A stretch of DNA of 64,000 nt, from assembly GCA_009746045.1 (NCBI GenBank), contig RPFO01000264.1, forward strand, positions 682,001 through 746,000, read 5' to 3'. Position 1 is the first letter of the stretch. Each line of letters starts with the position of its first letter. A model generated the notes under the pieces. It was not told where the DNA came from. It saw nothing but the letters and a program-made list of their open reading frames with translations, and did no database searches. Below are positions 2,314 through 55,493 of the stretch, piece after piece. Made by a program: the position numbers and the translations under genes. The DNA is from Mesostigma viride. Taxonomy: Eukaryota > Streptophyta > Mesostigmatophyceae > Mesostigmatales > Mesostigmataceae.

Positions 2314-3396
2314 ATTATGGTCTGTCCTGGATGGATGAGGGTGAGCAGGAGTCTGCTGAGATGTCTGTCACAAGGCCAGAGGTGGCCAGGGCTGCACCAC
2401 AGTCCAGGGGGCTGCATATGGCGGACATCATTCGAGCTCTGCAGAACAGCGAGCGTGATCCCAAGGTATCTAAGCTCACGGGATGGGGGTCATGTGGGGC
2501 ACCAGCACTAGAGGTGGATACCAACTCACAGGTGTCCATTCTAAGGGTAGAGGATGCTGCAGGACTGCAGTGGTCATCCCCTAGCTGCCTAGCTGTGTCT
2601 GATTTCTCTGGGAATGTGTCCATGAAGATCTTGGGAGAAGTGAGTGTGCCTATCCTGGGGGTGCCCACCACGTTCAGTGTGGTAGAAGGGTATCAGGGGC
2701 CTGCCATTCTAGGTCAGAACTTCTTGTGCTTGCCAGGGGTGAGGATATCCTCTGAGGAACTAGCATTAGAGGGGAAGGGCCGCCTTCCCTTGCAGAGATA
2801 TCGCTACTCCCAGGGTCTTAGTGTGGCTGTAAGGTCTGTGAGGGGTCAAGAGGCAGAGGGTCCTGATACAAAGGAGCCCATTGCTGGGGACCTGCTGATC
2901 CTCCCTACTACGTTTGACCGACGTGAGTTGGGTGTGCAGAGGTACCAGATCCCAGGAACGAGTCCTGTACTACCTTGGCGCAAGCTAGTGGAGATGATGC
3001 AAAGCCCCAAGATGGCTAAGGCATGGACTCTTGGCTTTGTTGCTTCTGGGCATGAGTGGATAGTTGCCAACTGTGCAGAGCCTGTGGATGTCCTCCCTGA
3101 CTGAGGATCACCAGCTGCTCAGATTGATGTTTGTCCTCAAGCTCAAGGAGGTGGATGGCGTGCAGGTGCCACATGTAAGACCAGTTGTGACTGAGTACCA
3201 TGGCACTGGACAGTTAGCAGATGAGGAGCTTTACACACCAGGGATGCTGCATGATACATGGAGGATTTTGTTGTGCATTTACTTATCTTTTCTGAACAAG
3301 GGGATACCCTATAGCTCTGTGTTGGTAGATTTCAAGAGGGCTTTTCTCAAGGGTGATCAACAGGAAGCACAGGATACTAGCTTGGCGCACAATACC
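2314..3396 (+). pseudogene. Element D pol, left part: protease-like domain and RT N-terminus
   Basis: Copia-like pol fragment related to the A pol at 38726-41167. The open frame from about 2331 carries a protease-like domain: VDTNSQVSI near 2514, VSDFSG near 2600, and LGQNFL near 2710. The RT N-terminus follows in another frame from about 3100 (LKLKEVDGV, RPVVTEYHGTG, ELYTPGMLHDTWR) and reaches VDFKRAFLKG, the first catalytic Asp region. It is cut at 3396 by A1 and resumes in the same frame at 11221. Gag and integrase are missing here, either off the window beyond E or lost. Confidence 0.75.
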
Positions 3397-4963: not shown

Positions 4964-6225
4964 TTAGACAGCTTGCTGAGATGGGTCCATCAGAGACTGA
5001 AGAACCTTGTATTGCACTGCTGCCTTCTGCACTAGCTTGGTCAAAGCATCAGCAGGATTGTCAACCCCAGGGATATGCTCAATATTGGCCAAGGAGGACA
5101 ACTCCTTAAGAAGGAGATAATCCAAGTCCCTACTTCTGGCCATCTGCCTGTGCACAAACTGCACCATCCCCATGGAGTCTGTTTTTAGAAGAGTGGTAAC
5201 CTGAAGTGGCCAAGGAGTGTTAGAAGTCATCTGATGAAGCAACTCCTTCAGATAAAGGCTTGTGTGAATGCCTTCACAAATAGCCCTGCATTCTGCCACA
5301 TCACTGCTGACAGCCACCCGTTTGTGCAGGCGACTAAACCAGCTCACCAAACTCCCCAGGCCTTCCTGTCTGAGCACAAAGAGCCCTGCAGCCCTGCCCC
5401 TGACCTTGGAGACCTGCCTGCTGTCCATTGAGCTATCCACATACAGCTCCATGCAAATGGGTTGTGATAAATCCACTGCAGACAACAGAATGCCAGATGA
5501 AGCCCTGACCTGATCAGCCACCTTGGCAGACCCTAGCTCCACCAGCATGTCATCAGGCAACCTGGCTATGACCATAAGGTCTGGCCTGGAAATGCCTGCC
5601 ACCCAAGCAACCATGCCCCTCACCATGGGACACAGTGCCTGTGTGATGGTTGGAGGAAGCTTGCTAATGAGGGTCTCTTGATAATCATTGCCCCCCACCA
5701 GCAGCATACGCCACTCCCCCCCTTCTTCACCAGTGTGGCCTCCATGCCCACAAACAGCAGAGGCTCATTCTCCACCTGCCATTGCTCCCTACCCAGAGGA
5801 AACTTGGACTTAATGATGGAGATCAGCTCCTTAAGCCACGACGTGGGAGCTATCAGATGTAGGTCATCCCCGTGCAGCGAAGCATACACTGGCAGGCCTT
5901 CCCATTGCCCCAGAAACAGACAGGGGTCTACAGGAGAGACCTTCAAGTTGCAATGCTCCTTCAGGAAACGGTTGAGAGTCTCCCTCCAGATTATTGGACT
6001 TGACCTCAGGCCCTCCAGGCCCTTGAGGATTTTAAGGAACTCCGTGTGGATGTCCCTTTTCCATACAGCAGGCACCCTAACATAGAAAGGCGTCTTGCCC
6101 TCCCACTTTTCCTGTGCCACATCTGCATCCCCTCCAGAAATGCCCTCTTGAAGTCTACCACCACTGAGCCATAGTCCAAGCCCTTGTTGAGAAGGCCTAG
6201 AAATACACACAGCAGCAGCCTCCAA
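4964..6225 (-). pseudogene. A1 RT C-terminal half and RNase H
   Basis: Two overlapping frames. The first (about 6225-5620) has the RT core with VSPVDPCLF and LHGDDLHL, the GDD catalytic motif. The second (5707-4964) has the RT thumb and RNase H: YVDSSMDSR, AVSSDVAECRAI, TDSMGMVQFVH and NPADALTK. They are joined by a -1 step at a run of seven G, the same place as in A2. The enzyme would copy the element RNA and degrade it from the hybrid. The shared break suggests a defective master copy, programmed slippage or a systematic homopolymer miscall. Confidence 0.8.
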
Positions 6226-8470
6226 GTATCATGCAGCATGCCAGGGGTATACAACTCCTCAGCAGTGCACTCACCAGTACCCTTGAACTCATTCAGCACT
6301 GGCCTGACATGTGGTACCTTGACCCCGTCCACCTCCTTCATCTTGATGACAAACTTGAGCTTGAGTAGACGTCGTGCAGGAGGCAGGTCATTGACAGGTT
6401 CCACGCATTTCTTGGAGATCCAGTCCTCCCCAGATTTAATCAGACCCAGTGTGACCTGGGGACACATAATGGGAGAGGACATGAGCTTCACCAGGCCTTG
6501 GTAGTTGATAGGGCTGTGTCCAGCAAGTGAGTGAGGACCAATGCCCAAACTGCTTGGATGACTAGCAGCTGGCAGTATGAGGTCATCAACCAAGGGCTCC
6601 TGCCCCTGGCACACTTGCACACGCTTAACCGACCTGGTTACTGCACGTGATAGGTGAGTGGTCCTGAAATTAATCAGTGGGACCTGACCAGCCCCTTCCT
6701 TAGTCAGGAGAGAGGACGTGATCACTACCCCATCCTGGCATAGGAAATTCTGCCCCAGAAGAGCAGGTCCTTGATAGCCCTCCAAGACACAAAAAGCAGT
6801 GTCCTGTCCAAGGATAGGAATGAATACCTCACCCAGTACCTTCACGTGTACCCCGCCACTGAAGTCAGACACAAACTGATAGCTGGGTTCAGACATGCTG
6901 TACCCTGCTGCAGCCCTGGTCCCAATGATGGAAACCTGAGAATTAGTGTCTACCTCTAAGGCAGTGTCCAGCCCCAGATTGCCATGCCACCTGAGCTTGG
7001 CTACCTTGGGCTGCTTCTTGGCCCTTTGTAGAGCCCCAATCAATCCAGCCAAACTTGTCCCCCTGGGCTTGGTTAGTGCCTTGGGCTTGACAGTTGACTC
7101 CCCAGCTGTTGACCTTGCAGCCTGTTCAACAAGTACCTCTGCAACCTGGCCAGGGCTGACAGATTCCCCTGCAACAGATGTGGTCGTTGCGTCAGTGATG
7201 TCACCTGGGACCTGAAAATCCTGCAGATCCTGTGAGCCTTGTGCCTGACTGCCCTCATTCATCAGGTTAGGCTTGACATATGACCAACTCAGCCGGTGCA
7301 CATGCTTTGGTTCGTCCTCCATGCTGACCAAGCATGCGTGGCTAGCTTCATCAACCTGGGTAACCACCCCAGGACTCCAGCTACCACGTTTGCCATAAAG
7401 GCTAGGTTCCTTCCAAGCTAGGACCTTCTGACCCACTTGTGGCTCCAGCATCTTCCAACCCCGGTCCTTCTCCCTCAGCTTGGCAAAGGTGACATGTGCA
7501 GCATGTTTCCAGCCCTCCAGCACATGTGGTGGGCACAGGCCATGATATAGACCCATTGGGCTGACAGCAACTCCATCATAGTAGAAGTTAACCCTGCTGT
7601 TCAGCTGCTGCTCCACGTTCCTCAGCCATGCACTCCTGACAAGTGCAGGTGCAGACAAGGGTACCCAGTCTTCAGAGATGATCAATTTCTTGACCTCCTG
7701 GATTGCCCTCTCGATAGCACCCTGCTGCCCATGAGCCTCCCTAGGTGTAACCAGCAACTCAGGAAGGGTAGGATCACCCTTGAGATGCTGAAACTGCATG
7801 TCCACCTGGATCCTTGTGGTAGGAAACTTGGCTCTTACATTCTGCAGGGCAGCCAGCAAGTACCTGTTCTTCATAGAAGGTAAATGCTCCAGCACCTTGT
7901 ATTTCGTGTACCTGTCCACGCACACCAACAGTTGCATGCCCCTGATGTGTTGGATATCACACTGCAGATCACCAATGCTCTGAGGTAGAGCTTTGGCATG
8001 TGATTTCCTGGGCTTGTTGGAGGACAACTGGCACTTACACCGTGAGGCAGCTTGCTGACACGCCTTAAGAAGGGGTGCCCTGCCCATACGGAAGGCAAAG
8101 TTGTTTGACAGAGAAGTGGCATGCCCAAACATGTTGTGGATTCGGGCACCCAACTCCTGGTACACAGAGGAAGCAGTCCCTGGCACAGTCAGGACTGTGC
8201 TGTCAGGTTGTCCAGCATCACCATGCTGACTTCCATCCTGTTCTGACTCAGAGCCTGAGTCACCCTGCTCATGCCCAACACCTGGACCGCCAGCAGGGAC
8301 CACATGCATACCACCAGAGGCCTTCACACCCCTCTGTGGTTGTACATTGGTTTCTCTCAAAATGAGAGGTCCACCCTCGTGCCCAGCACGAGGATGCATG
8401 GGTCAGACATTCTTACAGCTGCATCAGCTGTCAAGGACGTCTTCATAGGAACCTGTACCTCTCCAGGTGA
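6006..8470 (-). pseudogene. A1 pol: integrase, protease-like domain, RT N-terminus
   Basis: One long frame of about 800 codons. Order: HNMFGH...CQQ...CKC pre-integrase zinc site; integrase core with CDIQHIRG, VDMQFQ and QQGAIERA; an integrase C-terminal region rich in Trp and Lys; then a retropepsin-like domain (VDTNSQVSII ... LLGQNFL); then the RT fingers up to DFKRAFLEG. After that the frame runs out of the RT homology by a -1 step at GGAGGGGATG. The protease-after-integrase order is unlike Ty1/copia (PR-IN-RT) and Ty3/gypsy (PR-RT-IN). The protein is nearly identical to that of A2. Confidence 0.85.
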
Positions 8471-8587
8471 CCTGGGGCCACACTGAACCTGGAGATCACC
8501 CTCTTGTTGCCCAGATATAAAATCTGCATTGGAGCACCTGGCCTCCCCCTTGGGTGAATTAAGGTGTGTAGGGGTTGCCTCAGACAG

Positions 8588-9691
8588 TCACTGCTCCTTG
8601 TTGTCTTCTTGCTGACTGCCCTTTGAAGGCTGGCCTGCCTGGGACTTGTTGTTGTTCTTCTTGTTGTTGTTGTTGTTATTCTTGTTGCTGCCCTGGCCCT
8701 GGGACTTCTTGAAGCTGGGACACTCCTTCTTGATGTGCCCCCACCCCTTGCACAGGTAGCATTGTATCTTGGACTTGCCCTGGCCACTGCCCCCGTTGTC
8801 AGACGCGTTGCCCTGCTTGGGCTGACCACCCACCCGCCTGAACACCGACTTGGAGTGTGACCTCCTGTCAGAATCAGGTGAATGATCTCCCTTGCGCTTG
8901 TTATGGTTGCCCCTACGCCCTCCTTGGCTTCGGTCAGCCTCAGACGTCTTGGAGCCACCCTGGGTACGCCCGCCTGCCTGGGTAGCCTTCACTGCTGGCA
9001 CTCCACCCTCAAACAGCTCCTCTGCCTCGAGTGCTTGTTTGATTATGACCTTGTAGGCCTTGAGGGTTGAGTGTGGGGCACACATGACTTTTAAGGAGCC
9101 ACGTGTCGCCTTATCCAGCCCAGAAACCTTGAGCCAGTTGGTTAGGGCTATGTTATCAGCGACATTAAAGCCGTGAGCCCTGCCCTCCTCAACCATCTTA
9201 CAATAGTTGAGAAAGTTCTGGATCAGGTCCCCCTTGACCTCCCACCCTGGTATTTATCCTGCCAATGGATCCCCACTTTCTTCCTCTGATCCTCCAGCAG
9301 CTCCTTCAGCTCAGCCACGTACAGTGCCCAGGCCTTGTTGGCCTTTTACACTCCCTGGTTAGGTCCTTAATCTGGTCAGTACACTTGCCAAAAGTGCTAC
9401 CCTATCCAGATTTGATAGTTTGTACCACCGTACAAGCTAGGGAACCCTTCTCCCTCCACAAACTCTTCAGCCTGCTTAGGCTTGGAGTCTGAGGTTACAG
9501 GCTGCAGTGATTGACAATTAAAAACCCTGTGTGGTAAGATCAAAGCCATGAACAGCTTGTGCATTATTATTATTGTGAGGAAGGTTGGTAATCTCTCCGG
9601 TAAGCCCCACGTCATCTACGTGAGCGGTTCCACTACCAGCACCCCCATTATTCCCACTGGCTGGACCCTTGCTACGGCGTCCCTCAGCCAT
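8588..9691 (-). pseudogene. A1 gag (second ORF), frameshifted
   Basis: Starts at ATGGCTGAGGGACG in sense and ends at TGA. It carries a capsid-like region (TDQIKDLTREC, VEEGRAHGFNV), a basic linker and a CCHC zinc knuckle, CYLCKGWGHIKKEC (C-x2-C-x4-H-x4-C), then an Asn/Lys-rich tail. At least one small indel near 9240-9400 breaks it compared with A2. Gag would package the element RNA into virus-like particles. Confidence 0.8.
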
Positions 9692-10571: not shown

Positions 10572-10595
10572 CTTTTTGACAGAGCGTGTAATACG

Positions 10596-11211: not shown

Positions 11212-11328
11212 ATACCCCCTTTCTTTGTTTAACAATACCCCCTTTCTTAATAAGGTGCCTGCAGTGTGGAGGGCAGAGCTACTAAAGGCGAGCTATCTGA
11301 GGATTCTCAAAGGCGTGGAAGGCCTTAG
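11212..11328 (+). pseudogene. Element D RT, middle fragment, with junction micro-duplication
   Basis: Begins with the ATACC target duplicate of A1. A 14-base stretch, ATACCCCCTTTCTT, occurs twice (11212 and 11235), separated by TGTTTAACA, so the original target gained 23 bases. From 11240 the RT frame resumes in phase with the fragment ending at 3396 (TPFLNKVPAVWR..., then LRILKGVEGL), and it is cut by C1 at 11328 after CTTAG. Confidence 0.75.
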
Positions 11329-18735: not shown

Positions 18736-19187
18736 AGTTAGATGAGATGCTTAGGCTGACACACGGATTTCCGGCCTGCGCGCCGCGTATTGCCTACCGC
18801 GGCTGAGCGGGACACCTCAGTACTGTACGGCAGGTCGTACAGTCCTGAGGTGTCATGTGGACTGATGTGCAGTTAGTGCCAGACTGTGCCTAGGCTCTAG
18901 CTCGACCCGCCAGATCCGGGTTATCCGGGTCTGACGGGCCGAGTGTAGTCGATGCTAGTGACGTGGTCACATGGCATTGCAGTGTACAGTTGTCCACTGG
19001 TAGACGCTGCAGGCAGCGCTGCCATAGGCATATAGGCGTAGCACTGGGGAGTGCCACAGCACCGAGTTTGCACACGGCAGAGTTCCATTCCTCACTCGTT
19101 GAGTTTCCCTTGTATTATTTGCATACTACAATCTCTCTCCACTCTCATCATCATTGAGTTGTCCGCCGCTATCTCGGCTTTCCAACT
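18736..19187 (+). repeat. F 5' LTR (452 bp)
   Basis: Ends AGTT/AACT. Contains a strong hairpin at about 18809-18852: GACACCTCAG ... CTGAGGTGTC with CTGTACG/CGTACAG inside. Followed by TGGACCGAAAAAATTTGC, not a standard initiator-tRNA site. Confidence 0.9.
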
Positions 19188-21765
19188 TGGACCGAAAAAA
19201 TTTGCAATGGCTTCCAACAACAACGCTGACAACACCAACACCAACAAGAAGGGGCGTGCGCCGACCAGGCGCACTTCCCCAAGGCTCTCGCCGGAGGGTT
19301 CGCCCTCCGCCACCGTGCGGGTGACGCCAAACGTCACCTTCAGCACGGTGGTTGCTGATAACCCGAGGCGTCGGACCCCGCAGGTGGGGGCCGGCGCCCC
19401 GGGGCAGGCAAGAGGTCGCACGCTTGCCGCCGGCGGTTCGTCCGCCATGGCACCCGGGGGGCAGGAACCCCGGGCACACGTGTGACACCCCCGTCGCAGG
19501 TGGCGGGGGACGTGAGCGTAGCGACTCCTCTGAGGAGGACGGGCAGGTGCCGCCCGTGAGGCCGCGACCCTCGCTCGAGGTGTCGTCACAGACTCCCGCG
19601 ACGTCGGGAAACCTGTCGGTGGGCCGCCAGCTGGCCACCATGGATATTGATCGCTACGGCGAACATGTCCCGCCCCCCGTCCAGTTCGGGCTTCGGCCCT
19701 TCTATCTACCCCTGGGGGAGTTACCGGATTTCATTCCGCGGTGGCGGCGTGGCGTCTCCGGAAGGCTTTTAACCTCAATTTTGAGGAACAAATGACGTCC
19801 TTTGATGTGCATTTTGTTCGGACGACCATCGAGCGCCGGCTGCAGTTGGGCTTCCATCCGATACACGTGGCGATCTGGCTGCGCTGTTTTGCCACCATCG
19901 CGGTTCAGAACCCGGGGACGGCTGATCAGTGGGCGTCAGATCTGCGCCAGTGTGAAGCGCTGCAGGTGGTGGCAACGCGTGAGCACGCGACCTTCACCCC
20001 GTTGCCTCAGTGGCCCCAGGTCACGCCAGTTGGCTGGGGGGACGTGAGGAGCCAGGCGGCTGCGATGCCGCCTCCGGCTGGGCGTGGGGCGGCAGGCGCC
20101 CCCGACACACCACCGGGTGGTGAGACCACCCAGGGCCCTCTGGCAGGTCAGAGGGCCCACACTCAGCAGCCGGCCCCCCCGCCAAGCGCAGGGGGCCAGG
20201 CGACTGCTGAAGCTCCCGGGGTTGCAGGGACCCCAGTGGCGACACCAGCTCCCGGGACTGCAGGGACCCCGGTAGCGACGCCGGCGCCTACGGCGCAGGC
20301 GGGGGAGGTAACTCCCATGGAGGGTGTCTCCGGCCCCTCCAGCAGCTCAGGTGGGCAGGTCACCTCCAGGCGCACCAAGGACAAGGGCCAGGCCGGGGAA
20401 GGCGGGCCCACGGGTCCCACCCGGGCGCAGGAGCAGCCTGAGGTGATGGAGGGTGATCTGTCTGGGGATGACATGATCACCCTGGGGGATGATGAGCAAG
20501 TGTGGCGGGCCATTGAGGCTGCCACAGCATCCTTTCGCGGGCTGGCTGACAGAACTCAGCAGCTGCACATTGCTGAGGCGGGCAGCCTGGTTTGTGCGAT
20601 CATTACGCACTTGCTGGGGTTGCCCAACCTCCAGGAGCACACCCGTGCAGTGTGCAACTCCTTGCTGCCTGCCCTGCAGGCCCTCCTTGCAGGGAGGAGG
20701 GTCCAGGGTAACAGGGCGCGCCTGGTGCGACACCTGGAGCGCCTGCACAACGCCATCTTGGTAGGTTGTTGCCTACCTGGCTGCACCATGACATTACTAA
20801 CCCTACTGACGATGACGTGTCTCTCTCTCCCACCACCTTCCATAACTGGGAGGAGGCCCGCAGCAGGAGGCGGGAAGTCACACACACTAACAACCCTACA
20901 CAGCCCACCCATATGCATGTTGCCCACCCATCCTACTCAGCCCATGTATGTCCCTCCTCCTCAGCCCCCTCATGTAGTACCTCCCACTCAAACTTTCTCT
21001 CCAGTGAATGCTGCAGCAGCACCCTCATCTCCCTCTCCCCCCGCGTCCCCCTCCCGTTGGCCTGTTTACAATGAGAACCGTCCTGTGGATAGGATCAATG
21101 TCAGGGGGCTGCCTGAGGGGCACACTAGGGAGCAGGGAAATCATGTACTTCTGTCTCTCCAGTTAGCCAGGGAGGAACTGAATGTAAAGAACTGGTTTGG
21201 GTCTCTCATGCAGGGGGATTTTTACCATCAGTCTTCCACTCAGATTCAGAATCTCATTCTCATCTTCCAGCGTAGGTATCCCAGGTGGCAGGATACACAG
21301 GCTAAGGCAGTCTGGGAGAGCTTCCTGAGGGCGCTCACTGACCTCCTCTCCATCCCCGCCTCGGTGGATATGTATGGGGCATTTAGGTGGGTAGAGGAGT
21401 ACCATGTCAGTTCCTTAGACTATGTGGCTGAGACCAAGAAGTACGAGCTAGCCATCAAAGCCCGTCCTGATGTCCAGCAGCTAGATCACAAGTTCTTGCT
21501 GCATGCCTTCCTGGAGAAACTTAAACTTGACAAAAACACATATGCTATGCTTGCAACAGGGCTGGCTAAGCATTGGGAGAACATGAAGGAGGCCCTGGAT
21601 TACATCAAGCTGGCCCTGGCCCCCCTCAGCAAGGGGGCCATGGGCACCTCAGTGAAGAGGGTCAGGGGGGAGGGGCAGGAGGAGGAGGATAGGGAGCGGG
21701 AGGATAGGAGCAAGAGGCCTGTCACCATGGCAGAGGTGAAGTCCCTGCTGGGACAGATGTTTAAG

Positions 21766-21909
21766 GGCAAGGGCAAGGGCAAGGGCAAGGGCAAGGGCAA
21801 GGGCAAGGGCAAGGGCAAGGGCAAGGGCAAGGGCAAGGGCAAGGGCAAGGGCAAGGGCAAGGGCAAGGGCAAGGGCAAGGGCAAGGGCTGGGGCAAGGGC
21901 AAGGGTAAG
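21766..21909 (+). repeat. GGCAAG hexanucleotide repeat, coding (Gly-Lys)n
   Basis: About 24 units of GGCAAG with one GGCTGG interruption near the end, giving a basic Gly-Lys ladder just before the Asn tract. A basic RNA-binding role is plausible by composition only. Confidence 0.95.
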
Positions 21910-21942
21910 GAGCAGTCTCCCTCCAAGGGGGGCAGCTCCAGC

Positions 21943-22724
<782 letters not shown>

Positions 22725-23277
22725 GAAGCAGGACAAGGAGGACAAGTCTTCTCAGCGGTGCACCCGCTGTGGCATGAAGTACCACCTTCGGGCGACCTGT
22801 CGCAAGAACATGCCCGAGTTGAAGGACCACGACGTCCTGTGCCACAAGTCCCACGGGCCGCCCCACGGCGACCCAAAGGACTGCAAGAGGCCTCCTTACA
22901 AGAAGTGTGAGTCTCCCTCTCATGCTGGCTTGATTGTGCCTGCTTCACCTCTTTCATCTGCATGCCCCACTGTCAGAGCAGTGAGCAGTTCTGGAAAGGT
23001 GTTACAGTTGGTTTCAGAATACTATGTCTCTAAACCCACATTCACTTCTATTGTTCCCAAGGTATGCAGGGTGTTCCCTTCAGAGGACACTCATATCAGC
23101 ATTCAGGAGCTTGCTTTACAGTTGCACTTCCTTTATGGGCATGAAGTGAGTGCAGAGGTGGTGGCAGCAGCAATAGGGGGGGCAGCACTCAGACGTGCTT
23201 GCCAGGTGGTCAGATCCCACTGCCATGCATGCAGCATTGTCAGTTCAATGCACCTGAACCCCCTAAGTGGCATGTAG

Positions 23278-24200
23278 CTACCCCACCTAAGTGCAAGGGC
23301 AGCCGGGTGGTAGGAGATGTCTTTCATATAAAAGGACAATCTTACTTGGCACTTAAAGATGCATGGTCAAGGTACACAACCATTGAACCATTACCTGCAT
23401 GGGATGGACAAGACACAGTTGCTCAGGGCTCTCTTCATTGCTCAGGCCAGGTACTACCCTGTGGAGGCATTGCTATTGGATCAACAGTTCACTTGTCTTG
23501 CCAATGAACCAGGGTGTGAGGCTATTGATCTGGCAGGGCTAGAAGATCATGAGAGGCAAGGCATCATTGAAAGGGCTATCAGGTCCATTAAAACCCCTGT
23601 AGCCAAGGAAGATGGTAATCTGCTGGCTGACAGTGGGTCATATGCTGACAGAGCCCTGTGGTCCACCAGGTTGTGCCAAGTCCTCAACAGGAGGCCACTC
23701 ATGAAAACCCCACAAGGGGTGGTCATTACACCAGATGGATTGCATGCAGGCATATATCCACCTGAGGTATTAGCCCTATACAACGCACTGCGAGCACATA
23801 CAGCTACATAGCAGGTTAGCTGTCAAGGATGCAAAGCATCCACGTCCCACCTTCAGAGAAGGGGATCAGGTCCTCTTCTACAAGGAGTCGGGACTAGGCA
23901 AGGTGGGTACCTGGCATGGGCCAGCCACCATCCTAACATTTAACACCACTGGCAGGACAGTGCAGGTTAAACACAATGACACGGGTAAGGTTCACAGGTG
24001 TTCACCGCACAGGATGAAATTGTATTTTCCAACTGTGTCAGACGTGGCAGAGGAGGAAGAGCTGTTGGCCGACAGCCCTGTACAACTGCCTGGCATCCCA
24101 GCGTTGCCCAGTGAGTGGTTGTTTGGAACACCCACTGGTGAGTGTGAGAGCCACAACCACTGTGACACCCAGGTCACCCTTGATGATTGCAGGCAGTCAC
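23278..24200 (+). pseudogene. F integrase
   Basis: Follows gag in a -1 frame, then shifts again near 23400 and 23810. Core motifs: VVGDVFHIKG (first Asp about 23316), LLLDQQF (second Asp 23479) and RQGIIERAIRSIK (Glu 23569), giving D-x29-E. Then NRRPLMKTPQGVV and, in the C-terminal domain, GTWHGPATILTFN and VHRCSPHRMKLYF. The enzyme would insert the element cDNA into the genome. Frame breaks make this copy defective. Confidence 0.8.
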
Positions 24201-25066
24201 TGCAGGCTTGGCCCCCTGCAGCAGAGGGTCACATTGGCAAAACAGGTGATCAGCAACCTATCACCTCTTCACTTGTGGAAATAGCTCAGCCACTAGCTGC
24301 ACGTTCCAAACGCAGCCTAGCAGAAGCTGTCCGCATTTTACAATCAGCACATAGAGCTAAAGCTCAAACTGCTGCAGGATCAGCTAAGGTGGGTAAGGTT
24401 GGGCAGAATGACAATAGCCCATTCTTGGTTGCAGTGGACACACAAGCCCAGGTCAGCATTATTAGTGCACTGGCTGTGCCCCATTTGCCTTTGGAACCTT
24501 CACCCTGGCACCATGTGGCTGATTTCTCAGGGCAGTCATCACTCAAGGTACAAGGTCAGGTAATGTTGACTATACTTGGTATCCCAACCCCTTTCCAGGT
24601 ATTGGAAGGTTATAAAGGTAATGCCTTGTTGGGTGATCCCTTTCTCTCTTACCCTGGTGTCATTATCTCCAGTGATAGACTGGCCATCCAGGACCTGGGT
24701 GGTGCTGATCTGAATCATTTCAAAATTCCTCTTCAAACACTTATTCAAACCAACATTGCTTCTGTAAAATTTGCTACCCCCAAGTATGCTCCAGGGCAAG
24801 AACCTTGTGTGGCAGATTTGGTTCATAATCAAAAACTTCATCCAACATCCTTTGGATTGGGCAAGCATGATGTGGCAAAAATGTCTCCTCTTTCTTATGA
24901 ACAGATAGAGCAAGACTGTCGCACACACATAGGGTTCCTAAAATGGGTGGAGGCCTTCAACAAGGCCAGGGAAGAATGGGTAGTGCCAGATCCCCTTAGC
25001 CCCTCTCACACTCCACCTGTCACACCTATTGACGAAAAGCCTGCAGGGTGCAGCACTTGCGCCTGA
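24201..25066 (+). pseudogene. F protease-like domain
   Basis: Same open frame as the integrase C-terminus. VAVDTQAQVSII (Asp near 24437), VADFSGQSSLKV, ILGIPTPF and ALLGDPFL form a retropepsin-like pattern, with Gln in place of the active-site Gly. It lies after integrase and before RT, where copia elements usually have nothing. It presumably cleaves the polyprotein, but activity with this active site is untested. Confidence 0.75.
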
Positions 25067-26497
25067 AGTTTGTGTGTAAACATAAGCCAGCAGCAGATGG
25101 GTCAGTCATTTTTCATGCTAGACCTTGTGTGACAGAGTTCAAGGGAACCACTGATCTGACAGAAGCAGAGCTGTACACGCCAGGCATTCAGCAAACTTCT
25201 TTAAAAATCTTGCTGTCTGTCTTTGTGGGTCATCTAAATGACGGGGATGATTATATCTGCAAGGCTACAGACATTAAAAGGGCCTTCCTGAAAGGCTCAC
25301 CTGAGATAGCACAACAAGTGTGGCATGGTCAGGTGTATGTAGTCTCCACTCCCTGAGTTTGGGCAAAACATATCCCTCAGCAGTACCTGAAAGCTAACAT
25401 AGGTGTTGAAGGGCTGCAATCAGCCCCTCGCATTTTCAGGATGTCAGCTCAGGCAGTGTTTGAAAAGCTAGGGGCTAGATATGATGACATAGACCCTTGC
25501 TTCTTTGTGGTACCACACCCTCATGGCATACTCACCTTTGTGTGGTATGGGGATGATCAGCTGATTGCTGGGCCAAGGCGTGCTGTAGAGGATTTTATTC
25601 AACAAGTGTCACAGCACTTTGAGATTGGCAAGCAAGTAGAGCTCGGTACCACTGCATGCCATAAAATTTTGTGGCACAATGTTACAACTTCAGCAGCATG
25701 ACAGCCAGTGGGTGTGTGCACTATACTCTCCTACTGATTACATGCACAGCTGCTTAATTGGAGGTTCTGCAAACAAAAATCAAACCTGGTGCATGTCCCA
25801 CCATTAGAGGCAAGCTGGGGTGGTTGTGCTCCACCTGTGCACCTCACCTGGCTGTGGCTACTGTAGCAGAGTTGATGATGATGTCTTGATGCAAGTAGGT
25901 CACAAAGCCATCACCAAAACTCTCCAGGAAGGCCCTCCCCTTATCTTGCATTCCTTGGATCTCCACAAAACCATTCACATCCAAGCTATGATGGATAGTT
26001 CCATGGAGTCCAGGCAGATCACCAAGTTGAAGGCAAGGGAGTCAGGCTTGTATTTTGTGCAGAATGATGATGCACCCTTGTCTCTCATTTCATGGTACAG
26101 CCGGTTGCATAGACGCAAGGCTGTCAGCAGCAATGCTGCTGAGTGCAGGGCAGTGGTGTCAGCAGTGCTTCATGCAAGATACTCGAATCATGTGCTGGTT
26201 TGGTTGCAGATGCAAGCAGGCAGCAGCGCTGGGGTGGTTGCACACTTGCTCACTGACAGTCAGTCAGTCCTCAGCTTCCTTGCTAACCCCTATGCTGTGC
26301 ACACTGATCTTGACTGGGTGGTCCTCAAACAGGAATCCACCTACCGGGAGTCCACCCGTCACGTGGAGGACAAGCACAACGCTGCTGACGCACTTACTAA
26401 AGTGCCTCAGCAGGCAGCTGATCAGTATCAGCTGTTGTACCACCTGATGAACCCGTACGGCAAGCAGGCAACCCTGCCCCATCGGGGGGACGCCTAG
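25040..26497 (+). pseudogene. F RT and RNase H
   Basis: RT: LRLKFVCKHKPA, RPCVTEFKGTTDL, ELYTPGIQQTSLK, DIKRAFLKG, then a stop near 25354, FVWYGDDQLIAG (YGDD near 25550) and a frame change near 25700-25850. RNase H: AMMDSSMESRQI, VSSNAAECRAVV, LTDSQSVLSFL, LDWVVLKQE and NAADALTKVPQ. Family match to copia RT/RH is clear, with GDD instead of the usual VDD. Broken by at least one stop and two shifts. Confidence 0.8.
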
Positions 26498-29189: not shown

Positions 29190-29641
29190 AGTTAGATGAG
29201 ATGCTTAGGCTGACACACGGATTTCTGGCCTGCGCGCCGCGTATTGCCTACCGCGGCTGAGCGGGACACCTCAGTACTGTACGGCAGGTCGTACAGTCCT
29301 GAGGTGTCATGTGGACTGATGTGCAGTTAGTGCCAGACTGTGCCTAGGCTCTAGCTCGACCTGCCAGATCCGGGTTATCCGGGTCTGACGGGCCGAGTGT
29401 AGTCGATGCTAGTGACGTGGTCGCATGGCATTGCAGTGTACAGTTGTCCACTGGTAGACGCTGCAGGCAGCGCTGCCATAGGCATATAGGCGTAGCACTG
29501 GGGAGTGCCACAGCACCGAGTTTGCACACGGCAGAGTTCCATTCTGAGCTCGTTGAGTTTCCCTTGTATTATTTGCATACTACAATCTCTCTCCACTCTC
29601 ATCATCATTGAGTTGTCCGCCGCTATCTCGGCTTTCCAACT
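29190..29641 (+). repeat. F 3' LTR (452 bp)
   Basis: Direct repeat of 18736-19187 with about six differences seen by eye (for example CGACCTG for CGACCCG). Ends CCAACT before GAAGC. Confidence 0.9.
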
Positions 29642-31004: not shown

Positions 31005-31041
31005 CGTATTACAACTCGTATTACACGCTCTGTTAAAAAGA

Positions 31042-37346: not shown

Positions 37347-38090
37347 TGTCAAATATCTAGCGATGTTTCTCTACTTTTGTCACGCATTATGGTATCACGC
37401 ATTATATGCGGGGAAAATTGACGCCGTCAGCTAGGTGTTTATTTACACGACTTGTTGTTGGGTTTGCATCCCTATTAATTGCACCCACAGGTCGTTGACT
37501 AACTTAATATCATATACAATGTTTGAGTGTACTAAAATCCGAATGATGTTGCTCGGAATACAGCAAGCGTTACCTGTCAGCACCGTTACAGGTGCCGTAA
37601 TTTACATCGGCTCTCTCCGGATCAGATCAGGTCCGCAGTTTGTGGTGCCGCCCTGGAGGCGATAGGACTTTGAGCCTATCAGACCACACACACAATGTAC
37701 CATGATGTGGACAATAGATTACAGGCTGCAAAGTCGTTATTATCTAGTGTTCTTTCCGTGGTTGTAGAGACGCTAAGCTGCAGTGCCGTCAGATGTAAAT
37801 CAACGGTGCATAATGCATTAGCCGCCACTACTTTGTGTGCCTAGAGTTGTTTTGCTTGCTAGCCGTGTGTGGCCCCGACCCAGTGTTGGTCGTGTGACCC
37901 TGCCCAGTGTTGGCATTGTCATTTGCCCTGGCCCAGTGTTGGCTATGGTAGACTGCGCCCAGTGTTGGCCGCACCGTGTTTTCCACTCTCAGTAAACGTA
38001 TTTTAATACAAGAAGTCTTTTCCATACACTTGTGCAATATCTGGGTCATAACAGGCAAAAGATCTTTCCTCCGAGCCCCGGTTTCTGACA
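37347..38090 (+). repeat. B 3' LTR (744 bp)
   Basis: Copy of 32547-33290; ends GTTTCTGACA before ATGTG. Confidence 0.95.
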
Positions 38091-38095
38091 ATGTG

Positions 38096-38585
38096 TGCTC
38101 CTCACTCCACCCTGAAGGCCTACAAGGTCATCATCAAGCAAGCTCTTGAAGCTGAGGAGCTGTTTGAGGGTGGGGTGCCAGCAGTGAAGGCAACCCACGC
38201 AGGTGGGCGTGCCCAGGGGGGCTCCAAGACGTCTGAGGCTGACAGAAGCCAGGGAGGACGAGGGGGCAACCATAACAAGCGCAAGGGCGATCATTCACCC
38301 GACTCTGACAGGAGGTCACACTCCAAGTCGGTGTTCAGGCGAGTGGGTGGTAAGCCCAAGCAGGGCAACGCGCCTGACAACGGGGGAGGAGGCCAGGGCA
38401 AGTCAAAAATACAATGCTACCTGTGCAAGGGGTGGGGGCATATCAAGAAGGAGTGTCCCAGCTTCAAGAAGTCCCAGGGCCAGGGCAGCAACAAGAATAA
38501 CAACAACAACAAGAAGAAGAACAACAACAAGTCCCAGGGCCAGCCTTCAAAGGGCAGTCAGCAAGAAGACAACAAGGAGCAGTGA
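38096..38585 (+). pseudogene. A2 gag, C-terminal part with zinc knuckle
   Basis: Continues from 32546. Basic, Gly/Ser-rich linker, CCHC knuckle CYLCKGWGHIKKEC, then an Asn/Lys/Gln-rich tail (NNNNNKKKNNN) and TGA. The short Asn run here may be the ancestral counterpart of the giant one in F. Confidence 0.85.
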
Positions 38586-38653: not shown

Positions 38654-41167
38654 ATATCTGGGCAACAAGAGGGTGATCTCCAGGTTCAGGGTGGCCCCAG
38701 GTCACCTGGAGAGGTACAGGTTCCTATGAAGACGTCCTTGACAGCTGATGCAGCTGTAAGAATGTCTGACCCAATGCATCCTCGTGCTGGGCACGAGGGT
38801 GGACCTCTCATTTTGAGAGAAACCAATGTACAACCACAGAGGGGTGTGAAGGCCTCTGGTGGTATGCATGTGGTCCCTGCTGGCGGTCCAGGTGTTGGGC
38901 ATGAGCAGGGTGACTCAGGCTCTGAGTCAGAACAGGATGGAAGTCAGCATGGTGATGCTGGACAACCTGACAGCACAGTCCTGACTGTGCCAGGGACTGC
39001 TTCCTCTGTGTACCAGGAGTTGGGTGCCCGAATCCACAACATGTTTGGGCATGCCACTTCTCTGTCAAACAACTTTGCCTTCCGTATGGGCAGGGCACCC
39101 CTTCTCAAGGCGTGTCAGCAAGCTGCCTCACGGTGTAAGTGCCAGTTGTCCTCCAACAAGCCCAGGAAATCACATGCCAAAGCTCTACCTCAGAGCATTG
39201 GTGATCTGCAGTGTGATATCCAACACATCAGGGGCATGCAACTGTTGGTGTGCGTGGACAGGTACACAAAATACAAGGTGCTGGAGCATTTACCTTCTAT
39301 GAAGAACAGGTACTTGCTGGCTGCCCTGCAGAATGTAAGAGCCAAGTTTCCTACCACAAGGATCCAGGTGGACATGCAGTTTCAGCATCTCAAGGGTGAT
39401 CCTACCCTTCCTGAGTTGCTGGTTACACCTAGGGAGGCTCATGGGCAGCAGGGTGCTATCGAGAGGGCAATCCAGGAGGTCAAGAAATTGATCATCTCTG
39501 AAGACTGGGTACCCTTGTCTGCACCTGCACTTGTCAGGAGTGCATGGCTGAGGAACGTGGAGCAGCAGCTGAACAGCAGGGTTAACTTCTACTATGATGG
39601 AGTTGCTGTCAGCCCAATGGGTCTATATCATGGCCTGTGCCCACCACATGTGCTGGAGGGCTGGAAACATGCTGCACATGTCACCTTTGCCAAGCTGAGG
39701 GAGAAGGACCGGGGTTGGAAGATGCTGGAGCCACAAGTGGGTCAGAAGGTCCTAGCTTGGAAGGAACCTAGCCTTTATGGCAAACGTGGTAGCTGGAGTC
39801 CTGGGGTGGTTACCCAGGTTGATGAAGCTAGCCACGCATGCTTGGTCAGCATGGAGGACGAACCAAAGCATGTACACCGGCTGAGTTGGTCATATGTCAA
39901 GCCTAACCTGATGAATGAGGGCAGTCAGGCACAAGGCTCACAGGATCTGCAGGATTTTCAGGTCCCAAGTGACATCACTGACGCAACGACCACATCTGTT
40001 GCAGGGGAATCTGTCAGCCCTGGCCAGGTTGCAGAGGTACTTGTTGAACAGGCTGCAAGGTCAACAGCTGGGGAGTCAACTGTCAAGCCCAAGGCACTAA
40101 CCAAGCCCAGGGGGACAAGTTTGGCTGGATTGATTGGGGCTCTACAAAGAGCCAAGAAGCAGCCCAAGGTAGCCAAGCTCAGGTGGCATGGCAATCTGGG
40201 GCTGGACACTGCCTTAGAGGTAGACACTAATTCTCAGGTTTCCATCATTGGGACCAGGGCTGCAGCAGGGTACAGCATGTCTGAACCCAGCTATCAGTTT
40301 GTGTCTGACTTCAGTGGCGGGGTACACGTGAAGGTACTGGGTGAGGTATTCATTCCTATCCTTGGACAGGACACTGCTTTTTGTGTCTTGGAGGGCTATC
40401 AAGGACCTGCTCTTCTGGGGCAGAATTTCCTATGCCAGGATGGGGTAGTGATCACGTCCTCTCTCCTGACTAAGGAAGGGGCTGGTCAGGTCCCACTGAT
40501 TAATTTCAGGACCACTCACCTATCACGTGCAGTAACCAGGTCGGTTAAGCGTGTGCAAGTGTGCCAGGGGCAGGAGCCCTTGGTTGATGACCTCATATTG
40601 CCAGCTGCTAGTCATCCAAGCAGTTTGGGCATTGGTCCTCACTCACTTGCTGGACACAGCCCTATCAACTACCAAGGCCTGGTGAAGCTCATGTCCTCTC
40701 CCATTATGTGTCCCCAGGTCACACTGGGTCTGATTAAATCTGGGGAGGACTGGATCTCCAAGAAATGCGTGGAACCTGTCAATGACCTGCCTCCTGCACG
40801 ACGTCTACTCAAGCTCAAGTTTGTCATCAAGATGAAGGAGGTGGACGGGGTCAAGGTACCACATGTCAGGCCAGTGCTGAATGAGTTCAAGGGTACTGGT
40901 GAGTGCACTGCTGAGGAGTTGTATACCCCTGGCATGTTGCATGATACTTGGAGGCTGCTGCTGTGTGTATTTCTAGGCCTTCTCAACAAGGGCTTGGACT
41001 ATGGCTCAGTGGTGGTAGACTTCAAGAGGGCATTTCTGGAGGGGATGCAGATGTGGCACAGGAAAAGTGGGAGGGCAAGACGCCTTTCTATGTTAGGGTG
41101 CCTGCTGTATGGAAAAGGGACATCCACACGGAGTTCCTTAAAATCCTCAAGGGCCTGGAGGGCCTGA
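38654..41167 (+). pseudogene. A2 pol: integrase, protease-like domain, RT N-terminus
   Basis: Open from about 38726 for 813 codons, -1 relative to gag. Pre-integrase site HNMFGH...CKC near residue 108; integrase D about 163, D about 215 (VDMQFQ) and E about 246 (QGAIERA), spacing D-x29-E. The C-terminal part runs to LSWSYVKPNLM. A Ser/Gln/Pro-rich linker leads to the protease-like domain: LEVDTNSQVSII near residue 499, VSDFSGG, ALLGQNFL near 563. Then the RT fingers, LLKLKFVIKMKEVDG, YTPGMLHDTWR and VVVDFKRAFLEG. RT homology then leaves this frame by a -1 step at GGAGGGGATG. Confidence 0.85.
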
Positions 41168-42209
41168 GGTCAAGTCCAATAATCTGGAGGGAGACTCTCA
41201 ACCGTTTCCTGAAGGAGCATTGCAACTTGAAGGTCTCTCCTGTAGACCCCTGTCTGTTTCTGGGGCAATGGGAAGGCCTGCCAGTGTATGCTTCGCTGCA
41301 CGGGGATGACCTACATCTGATAGCTCCCACGTCGTGGCTTAAGGAGCTGATCTCCATCATTAAGTCCAAGTTTCCTCTGGGTAGGGAGCAATGGCAGGTG
41401 GAGAATGAGCCTCTGCTGTTTGTGGGCATGGAGGCCACACTGGTGAAGAAGGGGGGGAGTGGCGTATGCTGCTGGTGGGGGGCAATGATTATCAAGAGAC
41501 CCTCATTAGCAAGCTTCCTCCAACCATCACACAGGCACTGTGTCCCATGGTGAGGGGCATGGTTGCTTGGGTGGCAGGCATTTCCAGGCCAGACCTTATG
41601 GTCATAGCCAGGTTGCCTGATGACATGCTGGTGGAGCTAGGGTCTGCCAAGGTGGCTGATCAGGTCAGGGCTTCATCTGGCATTCTGTTGTCTGCAGTGG
41701 ATTTATCACAACCCATTTGCATGGAGCTGTATGTGGATAGCTCAATGGACAGCAGGCAGGTCTCCAAGGTCAGGGGCAGGGCTGCAGGGCTCTTTGTGCT
41801 CAGACAGGAAGGCCTGGGGAGTTTGGTGAGCTGGTTTAGTCGCCTGCACAAACGGGTGGCTGTCAGCAGTGATGTGGCAGAATGCAGGGCTATTTGTGAA
41901 GGCATTCACACAAGCCTTTATCTGAAGGAGTTGCTTCATCAGATGACTTCTAACACTCCTTGGCCACTTCAGGTTACCACTCTTCTAAAAACAGACTCCA
42001 TGGGGATGGTGCAGTTTGTGCACAGGCAGATGGCCAGAAGTAGGGACTTGGATTATCTCCTTCTTAAGGAGTTGTCCTCCTTGGCCAATATTGAGCATAT
42101 CCCTGGGGTTGACAATCCTGCTGATGCTTTGACCAAGCTAGTGCAGAAGGCAGCAGTGCAATACAAGGTTCTTCAGTCTCTGATGGACCCATCTCAGCAA
42201 GCTGTCTAA
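40948..42209 (+). pseudogene. A2 RT C-terminal half and RNase H
   Basis: Frame 40948-41553 carries GDADVAQEKW, VPAVWKRD, SSPIIWRETL and LHGDDLHLIAP. After a -1 step at seven G (about 41452), frame 41466-42209 carries the rest of RT and RNase H: MELYVDSSMDSRQV, AVSSDVAECRAICEG, KTDSMGMVQFVHRQ and IPGVDNPADALTKL. Stop TAA at 42207. Both steps occur at the same bases in A1. Confidence 0.85.
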
Positions 42210-50065: not shown

Positions 50066-50410
50066 AGTTGAGTAACTCTAGAGCCCTAGGATCTGGCTCT
50101 GAGTTCCCCATGTCCGTCCGCACGCCATCCGCTAGCGTCCGCTCAGCCGCCGGCTATAATCCGGCGGTCCGATGCGGGCGACCGGTCTAAGGGCGGCGCC
50201 TAGGGCCGGCGCCACCTAGGCCCCAGTCCGGGGCCTTATCCGGGTCAGTACGGACGGCTAGCTTGTCCCACGGTTACGGCTAACCGGATAGGGTTTGCTG
50301 GCTAAGACATAAACCAGTGGTGGGCCAGCTCCGACGGTAGTTCTCTGTGTTCACCTTATCCCAAGCTCAACGTGACCGACCGCCATAGCTGAGCCGGTCG
50401 GGCTTTAACT
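50066..50410 (+). repeat. G 5' LTR (345 bp)
   Basis: Ends AGTT/AACT. GC-rich with several hairpins; CCGCCGG / CTATAAT / CCGGCGG places a TATA-like box in a 7-nt loop. Followed by TGTATTCATAAAAATCCCG and then the gag ATG, leaving only 19 bases of leader. Confidence 0.95.
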
Positions 50411-52111: not shown

Positions 52112-53209
52112 AACTGTTAGCATACCAGATGCACCGTGCATACGGGCATGAGGCCCAAGCCGAGGTAGAGGGGGCACACATGTTGGGGGCACCTTTATAC
52201 AACGAGCTGAAGAATGTGCGTGCTCAGTGTCCTGCCTGCATCAAGATCAGGAAGAAGTCGCGTAGGCGGCATGCCAAGACTCCACCCTTGGAGCGAGGGT
52301 ACCTTGTGGGGGATGTCATGCACATGGAAGGGGGGGACACCTATTTCATAGTCAAGGATAGGTTCAGCAAGGCCACCTACATTGAGCCGCTGCCCCACAT
52401 GTTGAGGCTGACCTGCACAGGGCTATCAAGATCAGCCTGGCTTTCTTTCATCCCGTAGTGGAGCTCATGCTAGACCAGCAGTTCCGCTGTGTGCAAGGTT
52501 TGCCGGGGATGGAGGCCGTGGTCATCGTGGGGCGTGAGGATCACGGCAATATGGGCATGATAGATCGCACTGTAAGCTATGTCAAGACTGTGGCAGCCAA
52601 GCGACAGGATAACCCACATGGCAAATCCTACGCGGTCAAGACGGCGTGGTGCAAGGAGCTCATGCATGTGTGCAACCATAGGCACGTGCTTGATGTCAAG
52701 GGCTTTGGGCTAGTCACGCCTCGGGGGCTGTCAGCGGGCACCTACTCACCCGAGGTAGTAGAGGCATACCACAGCATCTACAGGATACCGCCGCCAAGCT
52801 GCGGCTCAAGGATGCCACGCTGCCTGATTTGTCTAGCGCTTTTGAGGTCGGGCAGTTGGTCATGTTCCACAAGGAGAGCTCGCCCAGCGGCAAACGGGGC
52901 ACCATGCAGGGGCCTGGGGCCATCACAAAGTTAGACTGGCCGCTGCGGGTCATAGACATAGAGTGGAATGATCGGGTGTATAGGGTACCATGGGCATCGG
53001 TGGCAGGCTATAAGCAAGGGGATAGCATGGAGAGTGAGCTGGCAGCCAACAGGGCACTGGGGTGGGTAGTGAAGGATAATGCGCCTGTCGTAGCATCTGA
53101 GGTGGTACCCCACGGGTCGCTCCCAGGGGCAGACACAGCTACACCCCCCCCTCCCCTGGGCCCCAATATGACCCCGTGGATGGGTGGGATGAGGATGGGG
53201 TGGGTTTGA
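52072..53209 (+). pseudogene. G integrase
   Basis: Pre-integrase site (LAYQMHRAYGHE ... CPACIK), then GDVMHMEGGDTYFIVKDRFS with the first Asp. A -1 step near 52390 leads to LMLDQQFRCV (second Asp 52473). At the catalytic Glu position, 30 residues on, it reads MGMIDRTV: Asp instead of Glu. Another -1 step near 52795 leads to the C-terminal domain (FEVGQLVMFHKES, YRVPWASVAGYK). As read, catalysis would be impaired. Confidence 0.75.
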
Positions 53210-54700
53210 CGGGACCTAGTGCACGTAGTGACTCACCTCCTGTGCTAGCCACGGATAATGTGGGAGGCCCGCCTAGCGTGGCCTCGCCGGAGGGTCAGGG
53301 TCCTGCCCATGCGCCTCGCCCACCTAGGGACCTGGCTTCAACGGTCACGGCCTTGTGGCGTGCTCAGGCGCTTAAAGCGAAAGCTGCATCAGGGGTGGCT
53401 CAGGTCAAAACTCTCTCACAGGGGGTCAGGCCGGTTAAGTCAGCCTTGTTTCCTACGTGTAGACCGTGGCAGCTGGTGGCTGTGGACACGCAAGCATCCG
53501 TGTCTATTATCTCTCGTCGGGCAGCCACCCTGTATCCAGTGCTAGAGTCGCCGTACAAATCGGTGACCGACTTTGCAGGCACTTCGGCATATCAAGTTAC
53601 CGGGATGGTGGTGCTGCCGGTGTTGGGCATTGACACGCCGTTTCACGTCGTGGATGGCTACGAGGATGTGGCCTTGCTGGGCGAACCTTTCGTATCATAC
53701 CCGGGGTTCTCAGTGTCCGCTGACTTGCTGTCAGTCGCGGGGGTGGGCAGCATCCCGCTTCGCGAGTACCACGCTCCATTGGGGGTGGTGGTCGGGCAGC
53801 CCGGCGTCGTGCGGCGCTTACCGATGGCGGCGTTTTCCACACCGCCGCTCGTCCAGTCCATCATTCAGCCTCAGGATTGGCACCCGCGCAGCTTCGGCCT
53901 CCACTCACACTCACTGGCGGCGGATAGCCCTGTGACGTGGGAGCAACTTGTCCTGGACTGTCAAGATCCTCTCAAGTTTGCTTTGTGGCGCGACGCGTTC
54001 ATTCGAGCCAAGGAGCAGTGGCGAGAGCGCGAGGTCTACCGAGGATTGGAGAGTGTGCCAGCCGGGGCCACGCGGTTGCGGTTGAAGTTCGTGCTCACCT
54101 ACAAGCCGGACGAGACCAACTCTTCGGTGGTGTTCCGGGTAAGGCCCGTGGTCACGGAGACGAAGGGGTCCTCCCCGCTGGATGCCAAGGATCTTTATAC
54201 CCCTGGGCTCAACCATGTTTCGCATCGGCTACTGACGGTCATCTACTTGGGCAAGCGGAACGCGGGCAAGGACTACGGGATGTGGTGCGGTGACTTTCAG
54301 CGGGCATTCCTCCACAGCGACGCTGGGGTCGCGCAGCAAACATGGCAAGGCACCCGCTACGTGGTGAAGGTCCCGGTGGTCTGGCAGGATGGCACCATTG
54401 GCAGCGAGTATATCGAGCTGTTGACAGGGGTGGAGGGGCTGCAGAGCTCTCCCATCATCTTCCGCATTTCCGCGGAGGAGGTCTTGCAGAGCTTAGGGGC
54501 CACGTACCATCGCGCGGATCCTAACTTCTTTGTGGTCCCCACCGGCGTCCCTGGCGAGCCAGCCCTCTTCGTGTGGCATGGCGATGACTTCAAGCTGGTG
54601 GCACCTCGCACCTTTGCTACCAGTTTCTTGCTGCAGTGGCGGCTAAGTTTCCCCTGGGCAGGGCGGTGGATCATGAGGAGGGTAAACCCGTGGTGTTTTG
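53176..54700 (+). pseudogene. G protease-like domain and RT N-terminal two thirds
   Basis: Open for over 480 codons. Protease-like: VAVDTQASVSIISRRAA (Asp near 53485), VTDFAGTSAYQV, VLGIDTPFHVV, ALLGEPFVSYPG. RT: TRLRLKFVLTYKPDE, RPVVTETKGSS, DLYTPGLNHVSHR, WCGDFQRAFLHSD, SSPIIFRISAEE, FVWHGDDFKLVAP (GDD near 54583). RT homology leaves this frame by a -1 step near 54640. Confidence 0.8.
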
Positions 54701-55493
54701 CGGCGTGCAGTCTACGTTGCAGCGGGATTCGCGTTCTGGCGAATGGGTCATGCACATGCAGGATAGCCGCAACTATGTGGTTGACCTGCTGGCCGACCTC
54801 CCGTCCCCGCTGTTGGCAACCCATGGGCCCTCGGTTAAGGGCAAGCTCGGGTGGTTGGCGGACACGGTGGCACCTGATTTGGCAGTGCTCGCTCGCCTGC
54901 CCGATGATGTGCTGGAAGGACTAGGGTCCATTCATGTTCGGCGGCAGCTGGCCATGACGCCCGGCATTGTGCTTCGTGGGCTCGATTGCTCACAGCCGGT
55001 GCACCTCGAGATAGTGACGGATGCTAATCTAGAGACGCGCACAGTCAGCCAAGTGCGGGCCCGCATGGGGGCACTGTTCTTTATCAGCAATGAGGGCCAG
55101 CCTGGCATGTTGTTAGATTGGTACTCGCGCTTGCACAGCCGCATTGCCACTAGCCCCAACACGGCTGAATGCCGGGGCATTGTTTCAGCTATCTCACATG
55201 GCATGTGGCTGCGGTACTTGCTGGGTTGGGTATTTGGCTCGTGTGGGTTCACTCTTCACTGGACTAGCACGGTGCACACTGACTCACAAAGTTGTTTGGC
55301 CTTCCTTGACAATCCCTATGCGCGGTCACAGGACGTTGATTACCTCGTACTCGCTGAGGCGGCCTCCTGCGTCACGCGTCTCCAGCACATCGCGGATGAA
55401 CTCAATCCCGCGGATGCACTCACCAAGGAGGCGCGGGAGGCTGCCCCGCAGTACGCAGTGTTGCGCAAGCGCATGACGATGCAACACCCGTGA
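54636..55493 (+). pseudogene. G RT C-terminus and RNase H
   Basis: Continues RT (FPLGRAVDHEEGKPVVFCGV) and then RNase H: LEIVTDANLETRTV, LLDWYSRLHSRIATSPNTAE (the usual SS before the catalytic E region is SP), VHTDSQSCLAFLDNPYARSQ, LNPADALTKEA. Ends TGA at 55493. Confidence 0.8.

Follow-up and report, generated by a model that had tools for sequence, protein, structure and literature searches.

A retropepsin-like domain between integrase and reverse transcriptase in a copia-like retrotransposon lineage of Mesostigma viride

The order of domains in pol is the textbook criterion for the superfamilies of long terminal repeat (LTR) retrotransposons. In Ty1/copia elements the protease (PR) stands before the integrase (IN), and in Ty3/gypsy elements the order is PR, reverse transcriptase (RT), ribonuclease H (RNase H) and IN, as it is in foamy virus pol. 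Here we describe an amplified lineage of Mesostigma viride that breaks this order. It was analysed in a window of 64,000 nucleotides (contig RPFO01000264.1, positions 682,001 to 746,000, forward strand), in which the stretch under study, 23278-25066, spans the integrase core, a PR-like domain and the edge of the RT of an element that we call G, and in the genome of the species (439.9 Mb in 2243 contigs).

Like Ty1/copia, the lineage shows strong RT and RNase H profile matches, an integrase before the RT, LTRs and short target duplications, but no copia-type protease was detected before its integrase, a retropepsin-type domain lies between IN and RT, the RT box is x-G-D-D instead of H-V-D-D and the LTRs start with AGTT and end with AACT. 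With the retropepsins of clan AA (gypsy gag-asp_proteas, Ddi1 RVP) it shares the predicted fold and the register of D-T, flap and LLG, although N, Q or M replaces the glycine of D-T-G in all five families. In foamy viruses, going by the consulted portion of PMC8387031, a protease domain also lies directly N-terminal to the RT and is possibly not cleaved from it, but that protease keeps Asp-Thr/Ser-Gly, the standard retroviral motif. Another shuffled pol order, which concerns the integrase, is described for the Gmr1 clade (PMC2774666, consulted portion); that is a Ty3/gypsy lineage with a copia-like integrase order, whereas here the RT is copia-like and the protease is newly placed. No report of an IN-PR-RT order was found in the literature searched, where most subscription journals were outside reach, and the word "copia" does not occur in the main texts of two M. 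viride genome papers (PMC6947507, PMC7027972), the first of which gives LTR elements as the largest repeat class of the genome (27.9%).

Pol domain order in five families

The first-pass annotation of the window had read IN, a PR-like domain and RT, in this order, in elements F, A1, A2 and G, and a PR-RT part in D. Searching the window by tblastn with the frames of A2, F and G returned the same order in all four, followed by RNase H, and recovered the PR-RT part of D. IN precedes both PR and RT, which differs from the Ty3/gypsy order and agrees with Ty1/copia in placing the integrase before the RT. Four families had been counted as sharing the order; the sharing stands, but A1 and A2 are a single family (99.9% identity over 798 amino acids by tblastn within the window), which leaves A, D, F and G as independent families, to which the present analysis adds H. 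The features of G are as follows:

18736..19187, + strand, 5′ LTR of 452 bp with ends AGTT...AACT, 98.7% identical to 29190-29641
22759..22800, + strand, gag zinc knuckle CTRCGMKYHLRATC, located in the sequence
23122..23790, + strand, integrase, from HH..CC to the catalytic D, D, E; frame broken in the window copy
24425..24682, + strand, retropepsin-like domain, VDTQAQVSII ... ALLGDPFL
25054..25635, + strand, RT, with the WYGDD box at 25543-25557
25844..26452, + strand, RNase H, with ADALTK at 26384
29190..29641, + strand, 3′ LTR, pair of 18736-19187

The annotation had argued that the order was no chance rearrangement, and frames that stay open across the domains bear this out. A2 runs in a single frame from before the integrase through the PR-like domain into the start of the RT, IN and the PR-like domain lie within one frame in a D-family copy (L055), and in H (protein P0003) the entire pol is one frame of 1249 amino acids, read in three copies. 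The H frame is open in 13 of the 15 loci that were cut out, on different contigs, from at least 71 matches listed. We regard the IN-PR-RT order as virtually certain. Furthermore, canonical copia elements of the same genome read PR-first, so that the unusual order belongs to the lineage and stems neither from the host nor from the method. These canonical elements, with frames of 1226, 1460, 1444 and 1625-1755 amino acids among the top of 150 RVT_2 matches scored, carry a protease motif before the integrase (WVLDSAASSHM twice, WILDSAASSHM and WVVDTGATYHM across L027, L028, L029 and L030) and an HVDD RT box, where the lineage has YGDD or HGDD. The three that were scanned with Pfam (L027, L029, L030) show Pol_BBD, rve and RVT_2 in canonical order.

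The D, D, E motifs attributed to the integrase hold for A, D and G, but the third residue is D in F (GMIDR) and H (GLIDR, pol of copy L025). Pfam rve matches are weak (E 0.0074 to 0.051 in A, D, G and H), the value of 0.0074, from the G sister copy L038, being below the rve cut-off, and the integrase was recognised also by the register of its motifs. These D variants were absent from the first-pass annotation, as were three features treated below: the loss of the glycine, the DTG/DSG strings ahead of the integrase and the signs of a non-copia protease.

A retropepsin-like domain beside a copia-like RT

The catalytic motif of the domain is not VDTG but DTN in A and D, DTQ in F and G and DTM in H, so that the D-T/S-G of clan AA retropepsins is missing in five of five families. 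The second motif, two hydrophobic residues and a glycine, reads LLG in A, F and G, ILG in D and LIG in H. Asp and Thr do not vary between families whose identity to G across the domain is 38-41%, and the motif is identical within each family at 41 of 41 loci (19 H, 10 G, 4 A, 4 F, 4 D); these are the best matches to motif-bearing queries and hence a biased sample, in which three of the 19 H loci repeat others.

Our comparisons place the neighbouring RT and RNase H with copia. In profile-profile comparison of families D, F, G and H, the lineage RT matches the copia RT profile at 97% (E 8.7e-12) and its RNase H matches that of copia at 96.8% (E 2.6e-10). Pfam RVT_2 is above its cut-off in G (sister copy L038, E=8.2e-9) and below it in A (0.0013) and D (0.13), with no match in the F and H proteins, and RVT_1, the gypsy-type RT model, had no match in the lineage proteins scanned. 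A gypsy element in the window, which has a DSG protease upstream of its own RT (gag-asp_proteas 1.5e-10), gave 0.4% for the lineage RT and 0.1% for RNase H, a weak negative since the target is a single sequence. The integrase matches the copia IN profile weakly (15%, E 0.0017), a value close to that of the control, lineage IN against copia RT (E 0.0077), so that a copia origin of the integrase is only a possibility.

The domain itself very probably adopts the retropepsin fold, as predicted by AlphaFold2 for G (predicted local distance difference test 78, predicted template modelling score 0.75); the comparison with solved structures covers the A model only. The expectation that the domain would match or fold as a retropepsin was thus borne out by the predicted fold and not by the Pfam retropepsin models, all of which stay below their cut-offs. 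Against a set of gypsy-type proteases the domain scored 28.7, above all shuffles, and 23.5 when L058 was left out, a member of that set that resembles a host or bacterial single-domain protease. An NCBIfam scan gave nothing relevant, and phmmer searches of the PDB gave chance rows only for the whole A2 frame and no match for a four-row PR-RT profile.

The central claim of the first-pass annotation, that a copia-like lineage has a retropepsin-like domain placed between its integrase and its RT, is therefore supported. We moderately favour the view that this is a Ty1/copia-related LTR lineage, with pol in the order IN, retropepsin, RT and RNase H, that has lost its own protease and gained a retropepsin of another type. 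Its ancestor would have lost the copia-type protease that normally precedes the integrase, and a retropepsin of another type would have been acquired directly upstream of the RT. Gag and Pol would be translated as precursor proteins, in family H by way of the in-frame TGA between them, and the retropepsin domains would pair within the assembling Gag-Pol, as happens in other LTR elements, and then cleave it. As PR adjoins RT, the two may act as a single PR-RT enzyme, as in foamy viruses, with PR perhaps remaining joined to RT.

Several observations weigh against this account. The structure predictions were built on alignments of 5 and 6 sequences only; the Pfam retropepsin cut-offs are unreached, the best being gag-asp_proteas with 14.1 bits against 28.2 required; and a gypsy PR profile from the same genome misses the lineage domain even at E 5. 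A gypsy-only profile comparison gave a probability of just 11.6% (E 0.0026), or of 5 to 19% with one family left out, and the donor could be gypsy, retroviral-like or host Ddi1-like. The missing DTG glycine predicts, by analogy, weak or no activity, and transposition may rely on the proteases of other elements.

As to activity, we lean slightly towards a catalytically active domain. With D-T-N/Q/M in place of D-T-G, its active site must tolerate a side chain at the glycine position. The glycine is not universal in amplified elements, since D-S-A is present in three of four canonical copia elements that were read in this genome; Tnt1 also has alanine at this position. To our knowledge, the D-T-N/Q/M motif occurs in no active retropepsin. 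We propose tentatively that these elements form a distinct LTR class, IN-PR-RT-RNase H, which would have arisen by protease exchange and whose retropepsin would work with D-T-N/Q/M. The consistent loss of the glycine makes these elements a case in which one could test how much change the active site of a retropepsin tolerates while the element proliferates.

Purifying selection acts on the retropepsin-like domain in family G. Among 10 copies, the ratio of mean nonsynonymous to mean synonymous divergence (dN/dS) is 0.19 for PR, 0.12 for IN and 0.12 for RT, and 0.63 for the linker before PR (38 to 44 pairs, which are not independent). The stretch between PR and RT gives 0.006, a tighter constraint than that on RT, and RNase H gives 0.51 (7 copies, 20 pairs). 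Pairs with fewer than 40 shared codons or zero synonymous difference were dropped, and codons with stops or N were skipped. A smaller sample without minus-strand copies (6 pairs) has medians of 0.23 for PR, 0.08 for IN, 0.08 for RT and 0.46 for the linker, the RNase H median being 0.08 (3 pairs). The ratio is uninformative for H, whose copies are too alike, and for A against D, where it is saturated.

Alternative explanations

It is possible, though we hold it rather doubtful, that the retropepsin is catalytically dead and persists as a dimerisation or RT-stabilising module, processing being left to the proteases of other elements, to host enzymes or to none. The glycine is replaced in all five families, by codons at least two base changes away from those of glycine, the genome is rich in canonical copia and gypsy proteases, and a PR directly N-terminal to the RT recalls the fused PR-RT enzyme of foamy viruses (PMC8387031, consulted portion). 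Against this stand the Asp and Thr, invariant between families and constant within them, and the D-S-A of the canonical copia elements, which indicates that the glycine position is not strict. Dead proteases usually lose the Asp.

It appears unlikely that a rearrangement carried the original copia protease from before the integrase to the place of the domain after it. All clan AA proteases share a distant common ancestry, pol is copia-like from the RT onward, and the gypsy PR profile misses the domain too. However, the score of the domain against the copia PR profile, 13.7, was equalled by 27 of 200 shuffles, in contrast to the gypsy-type comparison, and that profile found nothing at E<=5 in H, F, G, A1 or the partial D, its source canonical elements being found at E 1e-51 or better. 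The second protease motif of the canonical copia elements here is LLS, and copia proteases usually have ILS where others have ILG (PMC2642776, consulted portion). Furthermore, Pol_BBD, the copia PR model, is present in three of three canonical elements and absent from all lineage proteins scanned with Pfam. A copia-derived PR was rejected because similarity to copia PR does not rise above shuffles and the motif is LLG, ILG or LIG instead of LLS. As this absence of a copia PR match and this motif go together with an RT and RNase H that do match copia, sequence comparison leads us to think that the protease was quite probably replaced by another retropepsin rather than relocated. If true, a protease of other ancestry than the RT, in a highly amplified lineage, would clearly exemplify the exchange of modules within pol.

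We consider it very unlikely that a protease was overlooked in gag or upstream of the integrase, for instance near the DTGA of F or the DSGS of A and D. Taken literally, the statement that no DTG-type site lies upstream of the integrase in any copy does not hold: such strings are QLDTGAVGPM in F (51869-51898), GDSGSESEQ in A (38909-38935 and 8238-8264) and VVGVDSGSQAARLEG in the D-family copy L055. These strings lie in stretches of simple composition, differ between families, lack a following [ST]-x-[IV] and have no counterpart in H; in F a VLG follows only about 20 residues on. They were rejected as a true protease for their simple composition, the missing next retropepsin motif and the lack of a protease profile match. 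Lineage, gypsy and copia PR profiles, run against all six frames of H, F, G and A1 (each LTR to LTR) and of the partial D, gave no other match better than E 3.4, and Pfam found no protease in the H gag, H pol before the domain, the pre-integrase stretch of F, the A frame or the D-like P0001 (the G gag was not scanned). A true protease in gag or before the integrase, named in advance as a finding that would undo the claim, was thus not found, a negative limited by the gypsy and copia profiles, which miss the lineage's own domain, so that an equally diverged upstream protease could escape them.

Finally, an artefact of chance rearrangement or of misassembled broken copies, to which the broken frames of the window copies of A, F and G might point, can practically be dismissed, since five families share the order and the H frame is open at loci on different contigs.

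Other members and copies of the lineage

The remaining features of families A, F and D in the window are:

38052..38582, + strand, A2 gag fragment, zinc knuckle at 38415-38456
39032..39484, + strand, A2 integrase, from HH..CC to the catalytic E; rve E=0.025, below cut-off
40211..40468, + strand, A2 retropepsin-like domain, EVDTNSQVSII ... ALLGQNFL
40808..41388, + strand, A2 RT, in two frames, LHGDD box at 41296-41310
41466..42206, + strand, A2 RNase H, by tblastn
4967..9253, - strand, A1 gag to RNase H, the copy 99.9% identical to A2
6705-6962, - strand, A1 retropepsin-like domain
3391-4013 and 10590-11211, A1 LTRs, pair 98.9% identical
50066..50410 (5′, 345 bp) and 55872-56216, + strand, F LTRs, 100% identical
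52129..52931, + strand, F integrase, third catalytic residue D, GMIDR at 52557-52586
53473..53730, + strand, F retropepsin-like domain, AVDTQASVSII ... ALLGEPFV; gag-asp_proteas E=0.2 over model positions 13-89 of 92 (Pfam)
54076..55490, + strand, F RT and RNase H, WHGDD box at 54574-54588
2505..2762, + strand, D retropepsin-like domain, EVDTNSQVSIL ... AILGQNFL, followed by RT to 3408
13928-14985, + strand, remainder of D

In H, a gag frame of 406 amino acids in L024 and 423 in L025 stands ahead of pol. Gag and pol share the reading frame with a single TGA between them, followed by CGT, in four of four copies (L024, L025, L026, L034), which makes this TGA a candidate for stop-codon read-through. 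The LTRs of F, G and H start with AGTT and end with AACT, not TG...CA, and A1 begins with AGTT; target duplications of about 5 bp flank the LTR pairs of F, A1, G and the H copy L025, whose LTR lies at 551-981 (pair 98.8% identical). In an F-family copy (L050, 1-1531) the integrase is divided between two frames, and a third frame, overlapping by about 100 bases, opens for PR-RT-RNase H. This copy is 100% identical to the F query over PR-RT, and its frame breaks are either fixed defects or programmed frameshifts.

The lineage is strongly and recently amplified in the M. viride genome. The matches listed number at least 71 for H, 110 for A, 105 for F, 148 for D and 139 for G. All 105 listed for F are 100% identical to the query over 395 amino acids and the LTRs of the window F copy are identical, which indicates recent amplification. 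Classifiers that require a domain order or Pfam cut-offs would presumably miss this part of the genome.

The closest database proteins to the window elements are M. viride gene models, among them P0002, which matches F at 97% identity along 60% of the query, and P0001, which belongs to family D. No relative of A2, searched as a single protein, or of a three-sequence profile was found in genome-contig and viral-contig collections. In a large protein set, the matches listed were three M. viride proteins, a record labelled Prorocentrum lima and a remote copia protein of canonical order, so that in these searches, whose candidates were restricted by length and to 8000 at most, the lineage is known from a single species. 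The Prorocentrum lima record (P0004, 158 amino acids) is 99% identical to family F over the matched length and reflects either contamination or recent transfer.

In the window copy of G, the gag frame (19651-23274) contains several hundred asparagines in a run, encoded by a microsatellite, and another G match has an open frame given as 18754 amino acids. The region 2331-14985 is a nested insertion, in which two elements interrupt D: A1 (3391-11211, LTR to LTR) and a second one whose 600-bp terminal repeats (11328-11927 and 13364-13963) are identical. Extra A-family LTR copies, 98-99% identical, lie at 30388-31010, 43159-43771 and 63655-64000; the first two may form the LTR pair of A2, interrupted by the insertion of a further element.
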